NCBI GenBank assembly: GCA_947570175.1
Contig: CANOTJ010000009.1
Span: 1-38,989 of the forward strand
Origin: an uncultured Mycoplasmatota bacterium
GTDB taxonomy: Bacteria; Bacillota_I; Bacilli_A; RF39; UBA660
DNA: 38,989 nucleotides
Reading direction: 5' to 3'
Below, one piece after another: positions 5,588-38,989 of this stretch; the stretch's first letter is position 1; every line of letters begins with the position of its first letter. Under the pieces are notes generated by a model. The model saw only the letters and a list, made by a program, of their open reading frames with translations. It did no database searches and had not been told where the DNA came from. The position numbers were made by a program, and so were the translations under genes.

Positions 5588-6429
5588 TGCAGGAAGGAAA
5601 AATTATAAAAATAATCAGTAATGATTATACTGTGTTAAGTGATCAAGAGTATATTTGTAAAAGCAGGGGGAAATTTCGAAAAGAGAAGATTACTCCATTA
5701 GTAGGAGATAATGTCATATTTGATGGCAATCAAAATTATATTTTAGAAATAAAACCTAGAAAAAATGAATTGGTTCGACCACCTGTTGCTAATATTGACC
5801 AAGCATTTATTATTACAAGTGTCAAACACCCCAATTTTTCTGCTAACTTATTAGACAAATTGATTAATATTATTGAGTTTAATAGGATAGAACCGATTCT
5901 TTGTTTTACAAAATTGGATCTACTAAATAAGGAAGAACAAAAAGAGATGGATGTAATTATGAAATATTATCAACAAATCGGTTACAAAGTTTTTCATAAT
6001 ACAGAAATAAAGGAACTCAAAAAACAATTTCAAAATAAAATCAGTGTTTTTACTGGTCAAACAGGAGCGGGGAAATCTACTTTACTAAATAAAATCAATC
6101 CCAATTTGAAAATTAAAACAGATGAAATATCTTATGCTTTAGGAAGAGGAAAACATACTACCCGTCATGTAGAATTGATTCCTATTGAAAACGGTTTCGT
6201 TGCAGACACTCCAGGATTTTCTAGTATTGATTTTTTTGATATGAACCCAAGTGACATTCGCGATAATTTTATCGAATTTGAACGGTATAAAGAGAAATGT
6301 AAATATCGTGATTGTATGCATGATAAAGAAGATGAGTGTTCTATTAAGAAAAAAGTAACGATAGGTGAAATATTAAAATCCAGATATGAAAATTATTTAA
6401 ATTTTATTCATAATAGGAATATGAGGTGA
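5587..6429 (+). CDS. rsgA: Ribosome small-subunit GTPase RsgA
   Basis: A circularly permuted GTPase that helps mature the 30S subunit. An N-terminal OB-fold region is followed by G4 (FTKLDLL), then G1 (GQTGAGKSTLL near 157-167), then G3 (DTPGFSSID), the permuted order that defines the family. The C-terminal zinc knuckle is seen as CKYRDCMHDKEDEC near 238-251. At 280 residues it is of usual size. The ATG shares its A with the TAA stop of prkC (TAATG), a coupling overlap. Placement between prkC and rpe is the common Bacillota order. Confidence 0.95.
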   Translation: MQEGKIIKIISNDYTVLSDQEYICKSRGKFRKEKITPLVGDNVIFDGNQNYILEIKPRKNELVRPPVANIDQAFIITSVKHPNFSANLLDKLINIIEFNRIEPILCFTKLDLLNKEEQKEMDVIMKYYQQIGYKVFHNTEIKELKKQFQNKISVFTGQTGAGKSTLLNKINPNLKIKTDEISYALGRGKHTTRHVELIPIENGFVADTPGFSSIDFFDMNPSDIRDNFIEFERYKEKCKYRDCMHDKEDECSIKKKVTIGEILKSRYENYLNFIHNRNMR

Positions 6430-6434
6430 TGTTG

Positions 6435-7079
6435 ATGTTATCCATATCAATTTTAGGTTTTTTAGAAAAGTCTACTTTAGATAAACAAGATATTAAAAAA
6501 ATTGATTCCCAAGATTTTGAATATATCCATTTGGATATTATGAATCAAGATTTTGTTTCAAAAAATTCTAAAGAGAATACTCAAATTAAAGAGTATTTAC
6601 AAGAAATAAATCATCCACTAGATATTCATTTAATGGTAGGTGATATTATACAATACATAGATGTTTATCAAGATTTGAATCCTGCCTATATCACTTTTCA
6701 TATTGAGGCAACTAAAAATCCTATGCATATCATAGAATATATCAGAAAGAAAAATATAAAAGTTGGAATTGCCATCAATCCTAAAACAGATATAGAAAAA
6801 ATACACCCTTATTTAAATATGATTGATTTGGTACTTGTGATGAGTGTAGAGCCAGGCTATGGCAATCAAAAATTTATAGATATTCGTTCTAAAATAAAGA
6901 AACTAATCCAAATTAGAAAAGAATATAATCACTCTTTTTTAATCGAAGTAGATGGTGGAATTAATAATCAAACCGCCCCCCTTATTCAACAGGCAGATAT
7001 AATAGTAGTAGGAAGCTATATCACTTCAAAAGAGGATTACAAAATGGCAATTGATCAAATAAAAAAGAATTTCAAATAA
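6435..7079 (+). CDS. rpe: Ribulose-phosphate 3-epimerase
   Basis: Interconverts ribulose 5-phosphate and xylulose 5-phosphate in the pentose phosphate pathway. A TIM-barrel protein of 214 residues with the metal-site HLD (H32, D34), the IHLMV histidine, MSVEPGYGNQKF (the phosphate and catalytic loop), and VDGGIN. The N-terminal motif is HLDIMN where most homologues have HxDxMD, a conservative change. In-frame GTG at 6426 and ATG at 6429 also exist. I prefer the ATG at 6435 because GAGGTGAT at 6423-6430 gives proper spacing, and it makes the first residues MLSISIL, like the family's SIL.AD start. Last gene of the operon; a terminator follows directly. Confidence 0.92.
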   Translation: MLSISILGFLEKSTLDKQDIKKIDSQDFEYIHLDIMNQDFVSKNSKENTQIKEYLQEINHPLDIHLMVGDIIQYIDVYQDLNPAYITFHIEATKNPMHIIEYIRKKNIKVGIAINPKTDIEKIHPYLNMIDLVLVMSVEPGYGNQKFIDIRSKIKKLIQIRKEYNHSFLIEVDGGINNQTAPLIQQADIIVVGSYITSKEDYKMAIDQIKKNFK

Positions 7080-7082
7080 AAC

Positions 7083-7113
7083 AAAAAAACTAGTCAAACT
7101 GGCTAGTTTTTTT
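7083..7113. terminator. Bidirectional terminator between rpe and the Cys-rich gene
   Basis: AAAAACTAGTC and GGCTAGTTTTT form an 11-pair stem (one G-U) with a five-base loop. It has A and T runs on both sides, so it can serve rpe on the plus strand and the convergent gene on the minus strand, whose stop codon lies in it. Confidence 0.85.
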
Positions 7114-7261
7114 CTTTATAGCTATCACACATTGTAGTTTCTTTTTCTCCATCCCCATGACAATTGCAGATTTTGACTTTCTTTAATTTACACATATCAC
7201 ATTCACAATCGCAATGTTTACAATCGTAAACAGAACAGTTTATGGTTTGTTCTTTTTTCAT
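7103..7261 (-). CDS. Small Cys-rich protein, DUF1540-like
   Basis: This 52-residue protein reads INCSVYDCKHCDCECDMCKL in its first half and ends with CNCHGDGEKETTMCDSYK. The pattern I.CSV..C with later C...C and a final CdSy resembles DUF1540, small Cys-rich proteins of clostridia that probably bind metal; their role is unknown. An upstream in-frame ATG would give 66 residues, but the internal ATG at 7261 is preceded by GGGTGAT at good spacing and places the conserved part near the N-terminus, so I use it. The gene converges on rpe and shares its terminator. Too short for certainty about function, but cysteine density and the ribosome binding site argue that it is real. Confidence 0.75.
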   Translation of the reverse strand: MKKEQTINCSVYDCKHCDCECDMCKLKKVKICNCHGDGEKETTMCDSYKEKN

Positions 7262-7346
7262 TTTATCACCCAATATTATTTTGGATTTAAAAAGGATTTT
7301 CATTCATAAAAAACAAAAATTTTAATAAAATGATATAGGTGATTTT

Positions 7347-8273
7347 ATGGACAAGATAAAAATTGGAATACCAAGAAGTATGTACTATTATTATTATAAA
7401 GACTTATGGATAAATCTTTTAAAACAGTTGGGATTTGAAATCATCATTAGTCCTAAAACAAATAAACAAATTATGAATTTAGGAAATCAATATGCATATG
7501 ATGAAATGTGTCTGTCTTTAAAAAACTATATTGGACATGTTGCGTATTTACAGGGAAAATGTGATTATATTTTAGTTCCAAGAATTGATAATTTTGGGTC
7601 AGATAATCAGACATGTACCAACTTTTTAGCTACCTTTGATATTATTCATAATTTGTTTGAAGAAAATCTCTTAAATTATAATATTGATTATAATCATCAT
7701 GAAACAGAATTAAAAGGATTTATCCACTTATTAAAACCATTTGGAATTTCTAAAAAAGAAATAGTTACAACTTATTTAGAAGTAAAAGAAAAAATAAAAG
7801 TACAACAAAAAAATGAAGTACGAACCAATTTAAAAAAATTAAACTCCTTAAATATCAAAATTCTTATAGTTGGTCATCCTTACAATGTCTATGATGATTA
7901 TATAGGGAAACCAATTATAAAAATTTTAAAACAATTACAAACAGAAATCATTTATAGTAATTTATTCAATCCTAAGATTGCCCAAGAAGAAAGTAAAAAA
8001 ATATCCAAAACTTTATATTGGAAATATAGTAAAGAAATTATCGGATGTATTCCAAGAATCATAGGGAAAATAGATGGAATTATTTTTCTCTCAACATTTC
8101 CATGTGGTTTAGATAGTCTTGTAAACGAACTTGCTATTCGAAAATTAAAACTTCCGACTTTAAATTTAGTCATTGATGATATGGATAGTTTAACTGGTTT
8201 TGAAACTAGGTTAGAAAGTTTTGTAGATGTGGTAAGGGAAAGGAAGAAACAAAAAAATGAAGAAAAAAATTAG
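7347..8273 (+). CDS. DUF2229-type CoA-dehydratase-related protein
   Basis: A 308-residue protein that matches the DUF2229 part of large activase/dehydratase fusion proteins: KIGIPRSMYYYY at the start, then ISPKTNKQIMNLG, YDEMCLSLKNYIGHV, VPRIDNFGSDNQTCTNF, and STFPCGLDSLV. The conserved cysteines in these motifs are the likely iron-sulfur ligands. The family is tied to ATP-driven, iron-sulfur-dependent low-potential electron transfer, as in 2-hydroxyacyl-CoA dehydratases and double-cubane proteins, but the substrate of this branch is not established. The start is preceded by AGGTGAT. Its end overlaps the next gene by 17 bases and all three genes of this unit are overlapped in this way. Confidence 0.8.
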   Translation: MDKIKIGIPRSMYYYYYKDLWINLLKQLGFEIIISPKTNKQIMNLGNQYAYDEMCLSLKNYIGHVAYLQGKCDYILVPRIDNFGSDNQTCTNFLATFDIIHNLFEENLLNYNIDYNHHETELKGFIHLLKPFGISKKEIVTTYLEVKEKIKVQQKNEVRTNLKKLNSLNIKILIVGHPYNVYDDYIGKPIIKILKQLQTEIIYSNLFNPKIAQEESKKISKTLYWKYSKEIIGCIPRIIGKIDGIIFLSTFPCGLDSLVNELAIRKLKLPTLNLVIDDMDSLTGFETRLESFVDVVRERKKQKNEEKN

Positions 8274-14183: not shown

Positions 14184-15074
14184 ATGAAAAAAGAAATAGA
14201 AAATTTTATTCAATATATAGAGAGTGTAAAAAGCTATTCTTCACATACCATTCGAAATTATAAACAGGATTTAAATCTATTTTTAATTTTTTGTATAGAA
14301 CAGAAAATGACAAAATTAACCAAAATAGACTATCCATTTTTAAGAAAATATTTAAGTCATTTATATGAAAAAAAGTATTCTAAAAAAACTATTTCTAGAA
14401 CTTTAAGTACCCTTCGAAGTTTTTTTAAATATTTAATGATAGGAAAAAAAATAGAATATAATCCAATGACACTAGTTTCTAATCCAAAATTGGATAAAAC
14501 ATTGCCTAAATTTTTATATTATGAACAATTAGAAAAGATATTAAAAATACCAGATTTAAAAACACCACTTGGACAAAGAGATTTACTAATTTTAGAAATT
14601 TTATACTCTACAGGAGTAAGAGTTGGAGAATTAGTAAATATTCAAATAAAAGATATCAATATCCATAATCAAACAATTAAAATCCTAGGAAAAGGAAATA
14701 AAGAACGCTATGTTTTATTTGGTAGTAAACTTAAAAAAATTTTAAATCTGTATTTAAATGATGGTCGTCTCAAACTATTAAAAAAACAAACAGATTATTT
14801 AATTTTAAACCATATTGGGAATGCAATTACAGATCGTGGTGTGCGTAACATTATCCAAAAAATTATTCAAAAAGGACAACTAGAATATAAAATTAGTCCA
14901 CACGTTTTTCGTCATACCTTCGCAACTCATATGCTAGAAAATGGAGCAGAACTTCGATGTGTTCAAGAACTATTAGGACATGAAAATTTATCGACGACTG
15001 AAATTTATACCCATGTTACCAATGAGCGACTTAGAAATATATATTTAAATACTCATCCAAGAGCAAAAGAGTAA
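14184..15074 (+). CDS. xerD: Tyrosine recombinase XerC/XerD type
   Basis: A 296-residue site-specific tyrosine recombinase, of the size and layout of the chromosome-dimer resolvases that act at dif. The N-terminal SAM-like core-binding domain covers about 1-95. The catalytic domain has the full set R146 (STGVRVGEL), K170 (GKGNKER), H240 and R243 (HVFRHTFATHML), H266 (LLGHENLST) and nucleophile Y275 (EIYTH). It stands alone with its own promoter, and no phage or integron genes are adjacent, so a housekeeping role is likely. I cannot decide XerC from XerD by sequence alone; no dif-like site was identified in the window. Confidence 0.88.
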   Translation: MKKEIENFIQYIESVKSYSSHTIRNYKQDLNLFLIFCIEQKMTKLTKIDYPFLRKYLSHLYEKKYSKKTISRTLSTLRSFFKYLMIGKKIEYNPMTLVSNPKLDKTLPKFLYYEQLEKILKIPDLKTPLGQRDLLILEILYSTGVRVGELVNIQIKDINIHNQTIKILGKGNKERYVLFGSKLKKILNLYLNDGRLKLLKKQTDYLILNHIGNAITDRGVRNIIQKIIQKGQLEYKISPHVFRHTFATHMLENGAELRCVQELLGHENLSTTEIYTHVTNERLRNIYLNTHPRAKE

Positions 15075-25780: not shown

Positions 25781-25941
25781 AGATTGAAATTATTTTTACA
25801 ATATGTTAATTTCATCATCTTTTCATGAAATTTTTGTTTTAAATTTATTGTATTCTATATTATTGATTTTTATCATTTCAAGTATTTACCTTTCTAATAT
25901 AATAAAGGGGATTTCGTATAATTTCTTCATGGTGCCAACCA

Positions 25942-25967
25942 AGTAAGAAAGTTATTTTAAACTTTTT
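25942..25967 (+). repeat. Left copy of a 26-base direct repeat
   Basis: AGTAAGAAAGTTATTT then T then AAACTTTTT. The second copy at 28450-28475 differs only at the 17th base. Confidence 0.85.
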
Positions 25968-26058
25968 ACCCTAACGGTTGATATAAGAATCAATCACTAC
26001 ATATATTTTTGCAAAATATGAAAAAAGTAGTAATAATTTTATGTTACTAATAATAATT

Positions 26059-27525
26059 TTACAAATGTTTTGTTCTTTGTCGTGTTTGGCTTGGTTGTAC
26101 TGGAATTTCATTACCACAAGATAATTTAATTAAATCTAGCATTTCTCTTAAATTTTCTAAAGATTGTCCTACATCTTTTTTTATTTCACTACTGGTTGTT
26201 ATCTTTGCAATAGTATTCACTAATCCATAGTATGAGATATTTTCTAATGCTTTTGGAGCAATACGTAAACTATCTATTACAATTCCTTTGCAATCTTTTA
26301 GACTTCTTTTAACTAAAAATTCCATTGTTTGTTCCTGTAATAACTCTCTTGCAGTACATTTGTTATCAGAAAAATTACCAATACCATTTAAACAAACAAA
26401 TGCCTTAGCCATAGTAAACAAAAAATCAGGTGGAACAATTTCATAGTAATAACAAGCACTTATCAAGTCTACAAAATAATAAGTTACTTCTTTTTTTCTT
26501 ACATCCTCACAATATTTTTTACAATATTCTTTAAGGGCTTTTTTTTTATCTAAGCTTAAATTTCCAAAAGAAATCAATATATTGTATAATTTTTCATAAT
26601 TTCCAGAGAAAATTGTTAAAAAGAAATTTCTGCATAATTTAGCGTCATCATCGCTTAAAACACATAATAATCCCATATCTAAAAAGCAAATATTGTTATT
26701 TTCATCTATACAAATATTTCCACTATGAGGATCTCCATGAAAGACTATTTGTTTATCATTAAACAATGCCCAAAAACTTGACCTAATATAACTATTTAAA
26801 GCAGTAGTAATCTTAGTTTTATTTTCATCAGTTAATTCTAATTTATTAACAGTTTGAGTCTTTATAAATTCCATAACAATTATATTGTCTGTACAATATT
26901 CTTCATATAATTTAGGAACTTTAATTTTTTTAGTACCACTTACTTTTCCATTAACACTATCTGCAAAATTTTGATATACTTTGATATTTTCTTTTTCATG
27001 TGCTAAATCTGTTTCTTGTTGTATCCACTCTAAATATAAATCCAGTGCATGATCTCCACCAGTAAAATTACTAAAATTTACAAATTTACCAAATCTATGA
27101 ACTATTTTTCTTATTCGTTTTATATCTTCATCTATTGTTCTTGTGATATCTTTTCTTTTGATTTTGATTGCCACTTCTTCTCCAGTTTTAAGTATTGCTC
27201 TATGTACTTGTGATACAGATGCAGAGCCAACTGGTTCTTTTTCGATAAAACTAAACAGATTATCTAAATTTGTCCCATATTCTTGTTTTAATATTTCTTC
27301 AATTTCATCATAACTAATTGGATTGCAATTATCACAAATACTTGATAACATTTGTCTATCTTTTTCAGTAAATAAATTATCAAAATTCTGAGTTGCTAAC
27401 ATTTGGGCTAATTTAATATAAACTACACCCATTTTTTCAGAAAATTCTTTAATAACTATTCCATTATTTCTTCTTAGTATAAATTTATTAAATAATAATT
27501 TAATTGCTTGTATATATAACTTCAT
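26059..27525 (-). CDS. ABC1/UbiB-family atypical kinase-like protein
   Basis: A 488-residue protein of the UbiB/ADCK/ABC1 family, ATP-binding protein-kinase-like enzymes best known for ubiquinone synthesis. Motifs: YIKLAQMLATQ at 36-46 (family KxGQ, here with A for G), the Ala-rich loop as EPVGSASVSQVH (97-108), VAIKIKR with K121, ETDLAHEKEN (171-180, family ExD...E..N), HGDPHSGN at 263-270 and LDMG at 282-285 (family DFG). Most bacterial UbiB proteins end in two membrane helices, but none is obvious here and the tail is polar (QPSQTRQRTKHL). A quinone role is doubtful in this anaerobe. A plausible -10 (TATAAT, 27560-27555) lies upstream on the minus strand. It sits in the accessory region, so horizontal acquisition is likely. 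Confidence 0.85.
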   Translation of the reverse strand: MKLYIQAIKLLFNKFILRRNNGIVIKEFSEKMGVVYIKLAQMLATQNFDNLFTEKDRQMLSSICDNCNPISYDEIEEILKQEYGTNLDNLFSFIEKEPVGSASVSQVHRAILKTGEEVAIKIKRKDITRTIDEDIKRIRKIVHRFGKFVNFSNFTGGDHALDLYLEWIQQETDLAHEKENIKVYQNFADSVNGKVSGTKKIKVPKLYEEYCTDNIIVMEFIKTQTVNKLELTDENKTKITTALNSYIRSSFWALFNDKQIVFHGDPHSGNICIDENNNICFLDMGLLCVLSDDDAKLCRNFFLTIFSGNYEKLYNILISFGNLSLDKKKALKEYCKKYCEDVRKKEVTYYFVDLISACYYYEIVPPDFLFTMAKAFVCLNGIGNFSDNKCTARELLQEQTMEFLVKRSLKDCKGIVIDSLRIAPKALENISYYGLVNTIAKITTSSEIKKDVGQSLENLREMLDLIKLSCGNEIPVQPSQTRQRTKHL

Positions 27526-27920
27526 TTTAATCTCCCAAAATTAATTCAATTAGTATTATACTACAAAATCTAATTTTTTTCTATATTTCTATCTCAAAAT
27601 CATCTTTTTCTTTGCCATCATGTTCTTCGCTAAAATTATATTTATCCTTAAAACAAAAAGAACCAATCATTTCTAATTGATTCTATGTCATAAAGTTCGA
27701 ATATTTCGAATAGATTCTTCTCTGGTTTCAAAGGGAGAGGAGTACAACAACTCTTTGATCAAAATAAAATGATTAAGTTAATAATTTAAGAACTTATAAT
27801 GTTTTAAAGAGTTTTTTAACGATATAATGAATATTTCTAATTATTATAAAGAAATTTGTTTTACCTAAAACACAAAAGGAAACTTAATATTAGAGTCTCT
27901 TTATAATATCTTTTTTATAC
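27526..27920. other. 395-base intergenic region inside the accessory segment
   Basis: Contains the UbiB-gene promoter (minus strand -10 at 27555-27560) and an imperfect hairpin AGAACCAAT/ATTGATTCT (27658-27683). A 28-codon minus-strand stretch (27687-27773, ending KELLYSSPFETREESIRNIR and TL) looks protein-like but has no start. The rest is featureless AT-rich DNA. Confidence 0.5.
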
Positions 27921-28304
27921 TTAGTCCTCAGTTACTTTTGTAATCAAAATCATGTTGCCATCTTCATCATATATGCCAAATTCATACCTAAAATCAGACT
28001 TTCTTAAATCTAAAAATATTTTTTTATTATCTCTTTTTAAGTTTTCATATATTTCCTTAATTTTATCTAAAGAATTGTAACGGAATTTATATAAATTAGT
28101 GGACAAAGAAAATTCTTTAAACTTAGGGATATCTTTTGTAGCATAGTCATACGTAACTAACATTATACAAGAATTTTGATTTTTAAGTTGCATCCATGAA
28201 ATTGGTTCATACTCGGCATATTCTATTTCAAATCCTAAATATTTTGTATAAAATTCTGATGATTTGAATATATCACTAACAACAAATTCAATTACTATAT
28301 CCAT
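27921..28304 (-). CDS. VOC-family (glyoxalase/bleomycin-resistance fold) protein
   Basis: A 127-residue protein with a single vicinal-oxygen-chelate fold: EFVVSDIFKSSEFYTKYLGF at the start (the usual first strand and helix), then a middle SWMQL..SCIMLV strand pair, and FGIYDEDGNMILI at the end, the typical closing (F.D.dGN.i.i). Substrate is unknown; relatives include glyoxalases, bleomycin- and fosfomycin-resistance proteins and many uncharacterised enzymes. AAAGGAG lies 12 bases upstream of the start. It lies between the UbiB-like gene and the right end of the putative satellite segment. Confidence 0.75.
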   Translation of the reverse strand: MDIVIEFVVSDIFKSSEFYTKYLGFEIEYAEYEPISWMQLKNQNSCIMLVTYDYATKDIPKFKEFSLSTNLYKFRYNSLDKIKEIYENLKRDNKKIFLDLRKSDFRYEFGIYDEDGNMILITKVTED

Positions 28305-28388
28305 AAATTCTTCTTCTCCTTTTCAATCTGCCTATAATATCACAAAAATTTATTATTGGCAAAACTTAGAATGTAATAAATTTATATA

Positions 28389-28432
28389 TATTAAAACTCG
28401 AATTTCTACAAAAATATAGAAAGTTCGAGTTT
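28389..28432 (-). terminator. Terminator hairpin next to the att core
   Basis: AAACTCGAA (28394-28402) and TTCGAGTTT (28424-28432) form a nine-pair stem extended by TTTCTA/TAGAAA-type pairing. On the minus strand it is followed by TTTTAATA. It lies 10 bases beyond the att core, so before insertion it would have sat just downstream of tRNA-Leu and may be the original tRNA terminator. Confidence 0.55.
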
Positions 28433-28441
28433 CCTATCAAT

Positions 28442-28452
28442 CTGGTGCGAGT
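28442..28452 (+). repeat. att core, left copy
   Basis: CTGGTGCGAGT, an exact 11-base copy of the 3' end of tRNA-Leu plus one flanking base. The matching copy is at 34103-34113. Confidence 0.65.
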
Positions 28453-28475
28453 AAGAAAGTTATTTCAAACTTTTT
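28450..28475 (+). repeat. Right copy of the 26-base direct repeat
   Basis: AGTAAGAAAGTTATTT then C then AAACTTTTT. It immediately follows, and overlaps by three bases, the att core, so it is the left terminus of the element. Confidence 0.85.
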
Positions 28476-28556
28476 TCTCTAAATTCAGTAATCAATACAA
28501 TATTTGTATCAATTTCTTAATATAATTATAAACTAAACTGCTGAATAATTAAATAC

Positions 28557-29876
28557 TTATTTACCAGTTTGTTTGCTTTTTTCTAATTTTCTTTGTAATC
28601 TTAATTGTTTTACTTCTTCTTTTTTTATTTGTTGTTCTTCTAGTAATTTATCCTGATTAATTTGATTAGATAAAACATTAACTAATCTTTCATTTAATTC
28701 ATTTCTTAATGTCATAAATGTTCTTTGTGTTTCCGAATCGATGTTTGTACTAAACCATACACACATATCTTTAACATCATCATCAAAATATTTTTTTAAT
28801 TGTTTTATTTCAATTTCTAAATCAATTTCATCAATAAAATCTTTTGTTGAATCTGTCAATTTTATAATAACACGACCTTTATCAGTAACACCACTAGAAA
28901 CAGAATAAATCTCATGTCTTCCAATTAATTTATCGTTTTGTCTAATTCCACAATAGTGAGATGTCTTTGTATAATTACAAAAATCAGCAAATGTTATTCC
29001 TTCATTACCTAACATTTTACCAGTTATATATTTTTCATCATTTATAACACCTTCAAATGTTAAATCCTTATTAATTAAAATAGTTCCTTTGTAATAATCT
29101 TCTTTATATCTAGTATATTCATCATCATTTGTTAAATCTAAAGATATTGAAATATCCATAACTTTATGATCTTTTAACTCTTCCATTGCTTCTGAATATT
29201 TATAACCCATATTTAGTTTTTTATTAAGTTCTTTTATTTTAGAAACATATTTTTTATCTATTTTTGACATTCTATTTTTATTCATAAAATTATATAAAGC
29301 AGGACCTCGTTTTGCATAAAATAAAACTAAATTCATTGTACTAGAATAAGTCATACCACTATGTCCATCATCTTTTATTTTTTGTTTTATCTTTGGTAAT
29401 TCAACTTTATCTTCTAGCATTGCCATTATTTCTAATGCTTTTTCCACTTCTAATCCACTATAATCTCCATTTGCTGAAGAAATACAAGTTTTTTCCCAAA
29501 TTTCAAATTTTTCAGGATGGATATATTTTTTTCCTTCTTCTATCCAAGTTGGCAATTTTTCTTGTGCCTCTTTTTCCCATTTTTTAATATTTGCTTCAGC
29601 ATCTTCAAACCATCTTTTTTCTCTTTTAAGCCATGTCTTCCTAGAACAATTTAAACATTCCTTAAAAGCACTATCCATAGTTACATCTAATGAATATAAA
29701 TTAATACCATTCCAATTCGCATAATAGTTTAGCTTCCCTTGTCTTCTTAATTGTTCCAATTTTATAACTATATCATCTAGACTTTGTCCTGCAAATGTTT
29801 GCATTTCAATTGAACTATCTTTATAATCTTTTATTTGTTCTTCTGTCATTGCTGATAAAATTTCATTTACATTCAT
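28557..29876 (-). CDS. Unknown protein of the mobilizable element
   Basis: A 439-residue protein that I cannot assign. It is highly charged and mostly helical. It starts MNVNEILSAMTEEQIKDYKD, has a Trp-rich early segment (KTWLKREKRWFEDAEANIKK and WEKEAQEKLPTWIEEGKK) with two cysteines in ECLNCSRKTW, a beta-rich middle (KGTILINKDLTFEGVINDEK) and a coiled-coil, Gln/Lys-rich C-terminus (EEQQIKKEEVKQLRLQRKLE). No nuclease, replication-initiator or helicase motif is visible. A strong GGGAGG ribosome binding site precedes the start. It lies 59 bases after the relaxase gene, so a role in mobilization or maintenance of the element is possible by position. Confidence 0.65.
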   Translation of the reverse strand: MNVNEILSAMTEEQIKDYKDSSIEMQTFAGQSLDDIVIKLEQLRRQGKLNYYANWNGINLYSLDVTMDSAFKECLNCSRKTWLKREKRWFEDAEANIKKWEKEAQEKLPTWIEEGKKYIHPEKFEIWEKTCISSANGDYSGLEVEKALEIMAMLEDKVELPKIKQKIKDDGHSGMTYSSTMNLVLFYAKRGPALYNFMNKNRMSKIDKKYVSKIKELNKKLNMGYKYSEAMEELKDHKVMDISISLDLTNDDEYTRYKEDYYKGTILINKDLTFEGVINDEKYITGKMLGNEGITFADFCNYTKTSHYCGIRQNDKLIGRHEIYSVSSGVTDKGRVIIKLTDSTKDFIDEIDLEIEIKQLKKYFDDDVKDMCVWFSTNIDSETQRTFMTLRNELNERLVNVLSNQINQDKLLEEQQIKKEEVKQLRLQRKLEKSKQTGK

Positions 29877-29935
29877 AGTTAAACCTCCCTCGTAATTACT
29901 TATTATTTTATCATATTTTTTTCACTTTTTATCAA

Positions 29936-31288
29936 TTATCGTTCAAAATCATCATTTTTATCATTATTTTTGTTATTTTGTATCATCTCAATGTCATTGT
30001 CATCAAGTATATCTTCATCATATAAATCATTTATAAAGTCATCATATTTATCATTAGAGAAGAATTTATTTTGTAAAAATTCTATAAATTTTTTCCATAA
30101 ATCTTTAAAATAATCAACTATATTTTGAAGTTTTGATACTTTATCTTCTAACTCATAAATAGTGTCATTTGCATCATTTAAATCATATTCTAATTCTTCA
30201 ATTCTATCATCACGAGTTTTTATTTTCTTTTTCAAATTTCTAACTTCATTAGAATGTTCTCTTAAGTCATCTTCATATTTTTTTAAGACTATATTTATAT
30301 CATTTGCATCTCTTAAATTAGAAGTAGTATCATTAGTTTGTTCTATATATTTTTTGATTTTATCTATATTTTCATTAGAAATAGTAAAGTTATTTTTATT
30401 AGTGATAGTTGGTTTAAGATTATCAATAATATTATTAATCTCATTAGATTTATTTTGTAATTCATCAGTTTTACTATTTAACTCTTTTAGTTGTTTTTTA
30501 TATTTTTCTTGTTCTCTTTTAAACTTTTTATATTCATTCATATTTGCAACATTAATATCAACATTTCTGCCTTCTTCTTTTTCTTTAAGAGTGGAGTTTA
30601 AATGATAAATTCTATTGAAAGAGTTGATACAATATACTCTCATTTTGTCTTGAATTTCTTTTAAACTTATTTTGTTGAAAACATCAGATTTACCAACTTG
30701 TTTTTCCATACCATTTTTCATTCCATCTTTGAAAGGTACACCAACAATATGTAAATGAGGACTAGATTCATCAAAATGAATAGTTGCATTTGCAATTTTA
30801 AAATTAGGTACAACTTCTTCCAAATCTACTATTTGTTCTTTAAAAACTTCAATCATTTTTTTCTTAAATTTATCATCTTTATCAGCCCAAAAATCCATAT
30901 CTCCAAGTTCAATAATTATTTCACAAGCAAGGTCTCTTTTGTTATCATTAGAGATATGATTAAAATAGTTTTCTATCTTCCTATCATTTCTAGTTTGCTT
31001 TTCGTTATATTTAATTCTTGCATCTTCAAATAATTCCAAATACAAGTTTTTTGTATCTTCTACAACAGAAGAGGTTCCTTTAATCGTACAAATCAACTCT
31101 TGTTCTTCATCATATTTTCGTAAATTATGTTTATCAACTTTTGATAATTGCTGATGATTTTGTATCGCATTATTAGATAGAGAAGTAGTTCCAGTTTCAG
31201 TATTTTTTACACTTCTTCTTGCTTTCTTTGATTTATTTTTATCATTACTTAAATGTAGTGAATAAGATAATTCTTCCTTTTCATTCAT
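29936..31288 (-). CDS. mobV: MobV-family relaxase (Pre/Mob)
   Basis: A 450-residue relaxase that would nick oriT and pilot the transferred strand. The N-terminal domain has NLRKYDEEQ (N55, R57; MobV motif 1, NxxR) and HFDESSPHLHI (H171, D173, E174, H178, H180), the HxDExxPHxH metal-site motif that defines MobV. Residues 250-410 form a long coiled coil, usual in Pre/Mob proteins. The tail is very acidic and Asn-rich (DDNDIEMIQNNKNNDKNDDF). AAAGGGGG lies 10 bases before the start. The gene is preceded by the structured region 31320-31480, where an oriT is expected for this family. Confidence 0.93.
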   Translation of the reverse strand: MNEKEELSYSLHLSNDKNKSKKARRSVKNTETGTTSLSNNAIQNHQQLSKVDKHNLRKYDEEQELICTIKGTSSVVEDTKNLYLELFEDARIKYNEKQTRNDRKIENYFNHISNDNKRDLACEIIIELGDMDFWADKDDKFKKKMIEVFKEQIVDLEEVVPNFKIANATIHFDESSPHLHIVGVPFKDGMKNGMEKQVGKSDVFNKISLKEIQDKMRVYCINSFNRIYHLNSTLKEKEEGRNVDINVANMNEYKKFKREQEKYKKQLKELNSKTDELQNKSNEINNIIDNLKPTITNKNNFTISNENIDKIKKYIEQTNDTTSNLRDANDINIVLKKYEDDLREHSNEVRNLKKKIKTRDDRIEELEYDLNDANDTIYELEDKVSKLQNIVDYFKDLWKKFIEFLQNKFFSNDKYDDFINDLYDEDILDDNDIEMIQNNKNNDKNDDFER

Positions 31289-31607
31289 ATTTTTTATTCC
31301 CCCTTTATTTGAATAGAGTCCTACTATTTATAGTAGGGGTAATTTTGCTTTGTCAAAATCTCTAACCCCCTATATATTTTGACACAAGTATCAAAATATG
31401 GGGGCTAAGGTTTAGGCAACCTTAGAATCCACCTGTCTTATTTCGTATTATTTCAAAACCTCGTAATGAAATAAAACTGCATAAGATTATTGATAAAATA
31501 GTAAGCACAGGTTATTATTTTATATATGAAAATTATTTGTACCTTTTACAAACTTCGTAAGTAAAAGTTATCATAATTTTAGCAACAAACTTTTTAAAGA
31601 TAAAAAG
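31289..31607. other. Intergenic region with candidate oriT hairpins
   Basis: The region between relaxase and recombinase has no gene but dense inverted repeats: CCTACTA/TAGTAGG (31320-31337), CCCCC..ATATTTTGA/TCAAAATATGGGGG (31366-31404), CTAAGGT/ACCTTAG (31405-31425), and TTATTTC/GAAATAA (31438-31473). MobV systems normally carry oriT directly upstream of the relaxase gene, so the first hairpin and the flanking GGTAATTTTG are the best oriT candidate. Confidence 0.55.
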
Positions 31608-33541
<1,934 letters not shown>

Positions 33542-33571
33542 AATAAATCTATCAGTTGTTTAAAATGTTTT

Positions 33572-33603
33572 GTTTTATGTTAACCCCTCAAAAAACATAA
33601 AAC
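33572..33603 (-). other. Perfect hairpin in the recombinase leader
   Basis: GTTTTATGTT (33572-33581) and AACATAAAAC (33594-33603) form a ten-pair stem with a 12-base loop in the untranslated leader. Confidence 0.65.
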
Positions 33604-33621
33604 TTCTTTTCTTGGTTTTCT

Positions 33622-33649
33622 ATTATAAAGAGTTTATAGTTAAAGTCAA
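33622..33649 (-). promoter_or_regulatory. Recombinase promoter
   Basis: On the minus strand TTGACT (33649-33644), a 16-base spacer and TATAAT (33627-33622). The leader to the recombinase start is about 150 nt. Confidence 0.75.
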
Positions 33650-33691
33650 GACATAATTACCTTTTTTTTGCCTATTTAAAGGCGATTTTAG

Positions 33692-34041
33692 AAGAAGTTG
33701 GTATATTTATATATAATTTAGTTTATTTGTTTTATATAGGCTTCTAAATCTGATAATTTAATGTTTTTAGATAAATTCTCAATAAAGATTTCATTAGAAT
33801 AATTGAATGCTAGAAATGTAATACCTTTAATAATTATTCTATGAGGTTCAATATAGTTTAAATTTGTTTTATTAATTTTTCTAATATTCCCATTAATAAT
33901 AGTTGGAGTAGTATTACAAAAACTACATATAAATTCAATTTTTTTCTTTAATTCGTTATCAATTTCTAATTTTTCCTTTGTAATATTTACCATTTTAAAC
34001 AATCCTTTCTTTCCTAAACACTAAAAAAGTACCAACTTCTT
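33692..34041. repeat. Inverted repeats flanking the 91-residue gene
   Basis: AAGAAGTTGGTA at 33692-33703 and its exact complement TACCAACTTCTT at 34030-34041 bracket the small gene. They could be protein-binding sites or arms of a long-range stem. Confidence 0.6.
33718..33993 (-). CDS. Unknown 91-residue protein at the element's right end
   Basis: A small protein starting MVNITKEKLEIDNELKKKIE with FICSFCN, two cysteines, then a beta-rich remainder (RIIIKGITFLAFNYSNEIFI) and a C-terminal helix. Not recognised. An upstream in-frame TTG at 34002 is too close to the AAAGGA ribosome binding site, so the ATG at 33993 is preferred. Its place between the att site and the recombinase gene is where small excision factors or regulators are often found, but no HTH is evident. 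Confidence 0.55.
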   Translation of the reverse strand: MVNITKEKLEIDNELKKKIEFICSFCNTTPTIINGNIRKINKTNLNYIEPHRIIIKGITFLAFNYSNEIFIENLSKNIKLSDLEAYIKQIN

Positions 34042-34102
34042 TAGAAATTGATACTTTATCTATTTTTAGTCTAAACTTTTAAAAGTTCGGACAGATTGCT
34101 TA

Positions 34103-34113
34103 CTGGTGCGAGT
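34103..34113 (+). repeat. att core, right copy, within tRNA-Leu
   Basis: CTGGTGCGAGT; on the minus strand it is the last ten bases of tRNA-Leu including CCA, plus one base. The other copy is at 28442-28452. Confidence 0.65.
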
Positions 34114-34188
34114 GAAGGGACTTGAACCCCCACGCCGTAAGGCACTAGATCCTAAGTCTAGCGCGTCTGCCAATTTCGCCACACTCGC
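34104..34188 (-). tRNA. tRNA-Leu (anticodon UAG)
   Basis: An 85-nt tRNA with a 7-bp acceptor stem (GCGAGTG/CACTCGC), encoded ACCA, D-arm GTGGCGAAATTGGCAGAC, anticodon stem CTAGA/TCTAG with loop CTTAGGA (anticodon TAG), a long variable arm typical of tRNA-Leu (TGCCTTACGGCG), and T-loop GGTTCAAGT. The accessory element abuts its 3' end. Confidence 0.96.
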
Positions 34189-38918: not shown

Positions 38919-38989
38919 ATAAGTAACGTTAAGAGTGTTAATCATTAGTTAAAATGTCCACGATTTTATTTATTGATAACAAACAAAGA

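Follow-up and report, generated by a model that had tools for sequence, protein, structure and literature searches.

Behind the tRNA-Leu(TAG) gene of an uncultured Mycoplasmatota bacterium (GTDB lineage RF39, UBA660), a complete element resembling an integrative and mobilizable element (IME) stands in tandem with two recombinase-less gene cassettes, one carrying a VOC gene and the other a UbiB-like gene. The window, that is, the whole 38,989-nucleotide stretch analysed here (contig CANOTJ010000009.1, assembly GCA_947570175.1), places all of these units on one strand. Comparison of their ends with those of related units makes it probable that this array of full element and cassettes was built by recombinase-driven insertion of circles at the CCA end of the tRNA gene, with mobilization in trans and stacking of units. 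The VOC/UbiB segment is not chromosomal filler. A preliminary description of the window had read this segment as one tandem satellite or cis-mobilizable element (CIME) bearing the ends of its recombinase-encoding neighbour, a reading that was largely right but understated, since the locus is one case of a family-wide cassette system behind tRNA genes.

Ordered from tRNA-Leu outward, the window contains the recombinase/MobV element, the VOC cassette, the UbiB cassette and a misspaced end, with right (R) ends facing the tRNA gene and left (L) ends facing away from it:

34104..34188, minus strand: tRNA-Leu(TAG), the attachment gene, whose CCA end is the core
28443..34106, minus strand: complete IME-like element, 5.66 kb, exactly at the tRNA-Leu CCA end
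34022..34106, minus strand: R end of the complete element, with arm, palindrome and T6 terminator hairpin directly behind tRNA-Leu
33718..34002, minus strand: P94, a conserved 94-aa element protein of unassigned function adjoining the R end (10 matches in the genome)
31608..33461, minus strand: intact large serine recombinase with YIRVSTEDQ catalytic motif and zinc-ribbon cysteines (PF00239, 1.8e-33; PF07508, 1e-15)
31312..31495, unstranded: conserved block with inverted repeats, resembling an origin of transfer (oriT)
29936..31288, minus strand: MobV-type relaxase, 450 aa (PF01076, 6e-16)
28557..29876, minus strand: cargo protein of the complete element, 439 aa, no Pfam match
28420..28482, unstranded: junction J1, where the VOC R end meets the IME L end across the core, with the canonical 22/14 spacing
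27723..28445, minus strand: VOC cassette, 723 bp, recombinase-less, with TGG/CCA cores and canonical arm spacing on both sides
28385..28445, minus strand: VOC cassette R end (CCA, 14 nt, TCGAAC), with a strong hairpin and a T-rich terminator-like tail
27921..28304, minus strand: VOC (glyoxalase/bleomycin-resistance superfamily) gene, 127 aa, sole gene of its cassette (PF00903, 3e-9)
27723..27755, minus strand: L end of the VOC cassette, AGAGTTGTTGTAC...23 nt...CCA, homologous to the L ends of the DnaJ and Nudix cassettes
27692..27754, unstranded: junction J2, where the UbiB R end meets the VOC L end across the core CTGGT, with the canonical 23/13 spacing
25930..27725, minus strand: UbiB cassette, 1.8 kb, without recombinase, derived by internal deletion from an R-P94-recombinase-MobV-UbiB-L element
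27581..27652, minus strand: 3' remnant of the MobV relaxase gene left by the internal deletion, aligning to the end of the intact mobV of locus L099
26059..27525, minus strand: UbiB/ABC1-like atypical kinase gene, 488 aa (PF03109, 3e-52)
25930..25974, unstranded: junction J3, at the left of the UbiB cassette, with an L arm that is conserved but lies 27 nt from CCA versus 22-23

Read in the direction of the tRNA, every unit follows one rule: CCA, 13-14 nt, a TCGAAC-like arm with a hairpin, the cargo, an AAAGTT-like arm, 22-23 nt and CCA. Beside the TGG core, the arms in the window are TATCAATC (VOC R), TTTCAAAGGGAG (VOC L), GATTCTTCTC (UbiB R) and TGCGAGTAAG (IME L). A search with loose limits recovered 38 distinct L/core/R strings, nearly all with 22/23 and 13/14 spacing, and none in the reversed control; about 34 are real, three or four (L074, L083, the first in L139, and L158) being judged tRNA or chance matches. 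Where a TGGTGCG-like core precedes an L end, its left flank is either a AAACTCGAA...TTCGAGTTT-NN-TATCAATC hairpin or the right arm of another element. About 20 single-gene units of 573-1405 bp could be delimited, all with the gene in the tRNA direction; spurious ORF-less units of 414-526 bp and a false far-downstream L end in L014 and L056 were ignored in the output of the cassette finder. The cargoes are unrelated to one another and include Peptidase_C26, HD, GNAT, NUDIX, WDGH, DUF7768, DUF1835/DUF3658, glycosyltransferase and DnaJ proteins, as well as several without a Pfam match. A third kind of boundary, with a TGATGACATTG core beside CTTAAACTGATGACATT, closes three arrays far from the tRNA (L004 3072-3110, L132 6660-6720 and L150 at about 2554) and is possibly another R-end type or a native half-site.

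The repeated ends on which the preliminary description was built are largely borne out. Its left-end repeat at 25942 and 28450 is real (AGTAAGAAAGTTATTT-N-AAACTTTTT, 33 bp, 91% identical); allowing up to three mismatches, this sequence has three matches in the 1.38-Mb genome, none in the reversed control and none in simulated windows, and the remaining copy, on contig C47, likewise forms the left end of an element next to a core. The 26-base end sequence behaves as an element end and not as a dispersed repeat: of the 19 family genomes with a match, 16 have the sequence itself or a near variant immediately after a TGGTGCG-like core. At the right ends, AAAGTTCG lies 14 bases ahead of the core at 28442 and 13 ahead of that at 34103, as described, and the hairpins reported at both sites hold, with T-rich tails and z values of -5.0 and -4.2. 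The claim that the left repeat again lies just after TGGTGC needs correction: the arm is kept at 25942, but CAACCA follows TGGTGC in place of G, and the distance from arm to core is 27 versus 22 at 28450. The single satellite segment is indeed tandem, recombinase-less and equipped with ends of the recombinase-element kind, but junction J2 between UbiB and VOC had been overlooked, so the segment consists of two modules. What had appeared to be an odd pairing of UbiB and VOC as one cargo is therefore a pair of independently acquired single-gene modules.

Cassettes matching across sites and genera indicate that recombinase-less units have moved as units. The comparison genomes belong to other genera and are fragmented metagenome assemblies. 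One cassette, whose gene encodes 155 aa, is shared by two of these genera (genomes G245 and G181) with 99.71% identity across 690 bp, yet it sits at tRNA-Ala in G245 and at a different tRNA-like 3' end in G181, with unrelated flanks; the identity ends at CCA on both sides, and the following unit differs. Similarly, a Peptidase_C26 cassette occurs in two genera with 90% identity, at tRNA-Leu(CAA) in the first and at the tmRNA locus in the second, and a Nudix cassette is about 90% identical among the genome's own loci on contigs C1 and C47 and a further genus (G102), the identity again ending at the cassette ends. On these alignments, recombinase-less cassettes have moved between sites and genera with exact boundaries.

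Alignment also identifies the origin of the UbiB cassette. In another species, locus L099 (CAMYTM010000003.1) carries a complete UbiB-bearing element of 5,694 bp, in the order tRNA-Thr, R end, P94, recombinase (652 aa), MobV (460 aa), UbiB and L end. The window cassette aligns to its R end (1855-1943) and, at 91% over 1706 bp from the end of mobV through ubiB, to positions 5829-7534, and lacks the 3.9 kb that comprise P94, the recombinase and most of mobV. By this alignment, the cassette is an internal-deletion derivative of an L099-type complete element. Other UbiB copies lack different parts of the element alignment (2090-5902 in L100, 2354-4905 in L102), which indicates that their deletions were independent. 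The left junction of the window cassette, with five extra bases (27 instead of 22-23 nt), has probably decayed and become inactive, so that among the window cassettes only VOC looks excisable.

As the preliminary reading requires, UbiB is not fixed at this locus: it occurs in IME-like elements or their derivatives at other tRNA and tmRNA sites in several species. In L104 a tmRNA with an R end precedes the gene by about 280 bp, and in G015 the gene follows an R end in the interval from tRNA-Phe to tRNA-Arg (35 bp in the genome studied here), with indistinct inner junctions. Its presence in several tRNA and tmRNA elements marks UbiB as a recurrent element cargo rather than a fixed neighbour of tRNA-Leu. 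UbiB relatives in G012 and G003 adjoin gpmI and gltX, without cassette ends. The 488-aa protein itself scores below the NCBIfam UbiB cut-off.

The VOC cassette has canonical ends on both sides, whereas the UbiB cassette is canonical on the right and off by five on the left. Few genomes carry a VOC relative (4 of 282 at E 1e-15), and cassette ends are absent around the nearest of these, in G263. Unlike for UbiB, no ancestral IME or integrative and conjugative element (ICE) with a VOC gene was found in this comparison. An assignment of the 28385-28445 hairpin as the native tRNA terminator was dropped, as the Nudix cassette pair shows the hairpin inside the moving unit.

The system extends well beyond this locus. 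The hairpin R motif was detected in 80 of the 193 family genomes sampled (about 40%; 69 of 148 genera) with none in the control, and almost nowhere outside the family (1 of about 300 genomes of the class); its neighbour is either an L end or the CCA of tmRNA or of a tRNA (Leu, Thr, Phe, Arg or Glu). Behind tRNA-Thr on contig C4, one recombinase element precedes two recombinase-less cassettes, DnaJ (799 bp) and GNAT (1190 bp), and two of the junctions there are homologous to J2. Behind tRNA-Arg on contig C1, two recombinase elements are followed by the Nudix cassette and more. Intact elements and cassettes have R-end types in common, as element E2 on C1 and the UbiB cassette both begin with CCAGAGAAGAATCT, and the first 123-135 bp of the Nudix cassette recur at 80-88% identity ahead of other cargo in dozens of genomes. 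The nearest approach to an intact tRNA-Leu site among the compared genomes is an uninterrupted tRNA-Leu(TAG)-tRNA-Ser run in G015.

Several further observations concern these arrays and the window. The cargo of element E2 on C1 (L055 13984-17848) reads like a DNA-alkylation repair set, with Ada/AlkA-like, Ogt-like, TagI-like and DUF1848-like proteins, and a 242-244-aa protein of unassigned family occurs in tRNA-linked segments with different neighbours (L129 8977-9711; L099 8781-9509). The right end of the window (38931-38986) overlaps the end of C47 (L004 3183-3237) with 98% identity over 56 bp; C47 and C14 therefore probably follow the window contig, an arrangement that would put another array, made up of tRNA-Ile, an element and the Nudix cassette, immediately to the right of the murC-like gene. 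Near the opposite end, at 45-995, lies a 316-aa ORF with an internal repeat (1-269 versus 223-491, DNA 83% identical).

From the architecture of the units, we infer that the serine recombinase of the right-hand element provides the catalysis and would move the VOC and UbiB cassettes in trans. Most likely, a serine recombinase encoded by full elements joins the R and L arms of an excised circle, which would then insert at CCA beside a tRNA or tmRNA gene. Newcomers would stack between the tRNA and older units. Both the units stripped of recombinase and relaxase through internal deletion, such as UbiB, and the one-gene units (VOC, Nudix, DnaJ, GNAT and others) would keep their two ends and be movable in trans. 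Because identity breaks at CCA, the crossover should fall within the CCA bases. Arm distances of 22-23 on one side and 22-23+ on the other give a site of about 53 bp, the usual site size of large serine integrases. A TTCGA dyad surrounds the core, with the tRNA T-loop at about 15 nt and the R arm at 13-14 nt; it may account for the many tRNAs and tmRNA used as targets, and may keep the R/tRNA junction a target, favouring stacking next to the tRNA. The R-end hairpin could replace the tRNA terminator displaced by insertion.

Intact serine recombinases from five elements of this genome and from L099 keep their catalytic motifs and are 47-70% identical to one another, although the C4 copy gave no match to the SERT motif pattern. 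The same 1.38-Mb genome (G000) has 18 recombinase matches, several of them truncated, an unusual load of serine-recombinase elements for this lineage to bear. The oriT-like inverted-repeat block of the window (31312-31495) also occurs in relaxase-less elements (L004 1024-1218; L055 9406-9571), and another element's relaxase could transfer such elements. The broader view, to our mind evenly balanced, is that of a hitherto undescribed gene-cassette system within one family, with standard R and L ends, helper serine recombinases, insertion at the CCA of any tRNA or tmRNA gene, a terminator in each cassette, and every tRNA gene a potential array anchor.

Three other explanations were weighed against this account. 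The array could be a graveyard at an integration hotspot, with the left-hand modules as dead remnants of classical CIME decay; the UbiB cassette, a deletion derivative with a misspaced left end, fits this description, as do truncated elements elsewhere (for example, C4 12311-12466). We nevertheless consider it unlikely for the array as a whole, given that both VOC cassette ends are canonical and that near-identical one-gene cassettes (99.7%) at different sites in different genera point to recent movement of recombinase-less units. It is much harder to credit a reading of the 28385-28445 hairpin as the tRNA-Leu gene's own terminator, pushed aside by the element, and of VOC and UbiB as ordinary chromosomal genes downstream of it. 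The hairpin is terminator-shaped and its motif lies directly behind many tRNAs in relatives; yet element-free tRNAs have different, unrelated downstream sequence, the block shared between copies of the Nudix cassette, or of the 155-aa cassette, terminates in this motif, which is thus part of moving units, the C4 recombinase element has its own copy beside its P94 gene, and the junction at 27692-27754 is left unexplained. Least credible of all is spread by homologous recombination between conserved tRNA genes and cassette ends, with no dedicated recombinase: tRNAs and R ends do offer short conserved flanks, but the target tRNAs differ in sequence, and identity stops sharply at CCA, leaving only 3-5 bp in common outside, which is too little.

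Insertion by a serine recombinase with carriage of cassettes in trans has its own difficulties. The left junction of the UbiB cassette is misspaced; several recombinase clades (47-70% identical) coexist, and the unit types are not all matched to one enzyme; and the fragmented metagenome assemblies allow binning errors, although contiguous junctions are unaffected by these. The case as a whole is also one of sequence comparison. If the recombinases do move the cassettes, a large lineage of uncultured gut Bacilli exchanges single genes in an integron-like manner, and the system offers both a test bed for the carriage of recombinase-less DNA and a pool of attachment sites for CCA-targeting recombinases.

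Among known systems, IME/CIME accretion and the Dehalococcoides ssrA islands come closest. The element at 28443-34106 combines a serine recombinase with a Mob_Pre/MobV relaxase, with no other transfer genes among its ORFs, as in an IME; the VOC and UbiB cassettes lack a recombinase and an intact relaxase, as CIMEs do, and UbiB is also derived by loss from such an element. CIME formation and accretion have been reviewed, with site-specific serine-recombinase IMEs sitting inside genes (PMC5704250). As in that accretion, MobV occurs with a serine recombinase here, and partner units lack integration and transfer genes yet carry the same kinds of ends, canonical on both sides for VOC and on the right for UbiB; unlike those IMEs, the units here abut tRNA genes exactly at CCA, and the recombinase-less ones are mostly one-gene cassettes, not large relics. 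In the Islander paper, only tyrosine integrases were stated to be known to target tRNA and tmRNA genes (PMC4383910), contrary to the serine-recombinase elements found here at many tRNAs and tmRNA, and a survey of large serine recombinases describes multi-targeting enzymes with no mention of tRNA in its main text (PMC10083194). We found no description of tRNA-anchored one-gene serine-recombinase cassettes in the open-access literature.

The ssrA islands of Dehalococcoides offer another parallel, as they carry DsiB, a CcrB-like serine recombinase, and form tandem arrays in the 3' portion of the tmRNA gene; 15 of them have no integration module and were called possible cis-mobilizable elements (PMC3146451). 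Both systems place serine-recombinase units in tandem at tmRNA, some without an integration module. Those islands have one target (ssrA), a T-loop crossover, 20-bp direct repeats, larger size and dehalogenase cargo, whereas here many tRNAs and tmRNA are targeted, the crossover would be at CCA, units go down to 0.57 kb and one gene, and R ends have hairpins. In place of a dsiA/dsiB module and ssrA repeat, the module here is P94 and recombinase (with or without MobV), with tRNAs and tmRNA as targets.

Staphylococcal cassette chromosome (SCC) and pseudo-SCC elements are similar in recombinase family (the nearest NCBIfam models of the window recombinase are XisF and CcrB/A/C), in tandem units at the 3' end of one gene and in units without ccr. 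SCC elements use the orfX/rlmH site, span tens of kilobases and occupy a single locus per genome. Here, Ccr models score 92-112 bits against cut-offs of 700-900, and insertion is at tRNA-Leu. To integron cassettes the likeness is one of functional analogy: one gene, a common orientation, a conserved site, arrays and an enzyme supplied from another unit. Unlike in integrons, however, there is no IntI at the sites, the array recombinase is of the serine type, with sites of the double-strand kind, and each genome has several tRNA anchor points; the window has a single ORF resembling a tyrosine-type recombinase (14184-15074), which is 11 kb distant and, by its sequence, looks like a housekeeping XerC/D. 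By origin the window units resemble CIMEs (UbiB) and by form they resemble cassettes (VOC), and the case belongs with the IME/CIME kind; by its single-gene size and many tRNA targets, it appears to be an integron-like variant, and looks like integron-style gene swapping assembled from other parts.
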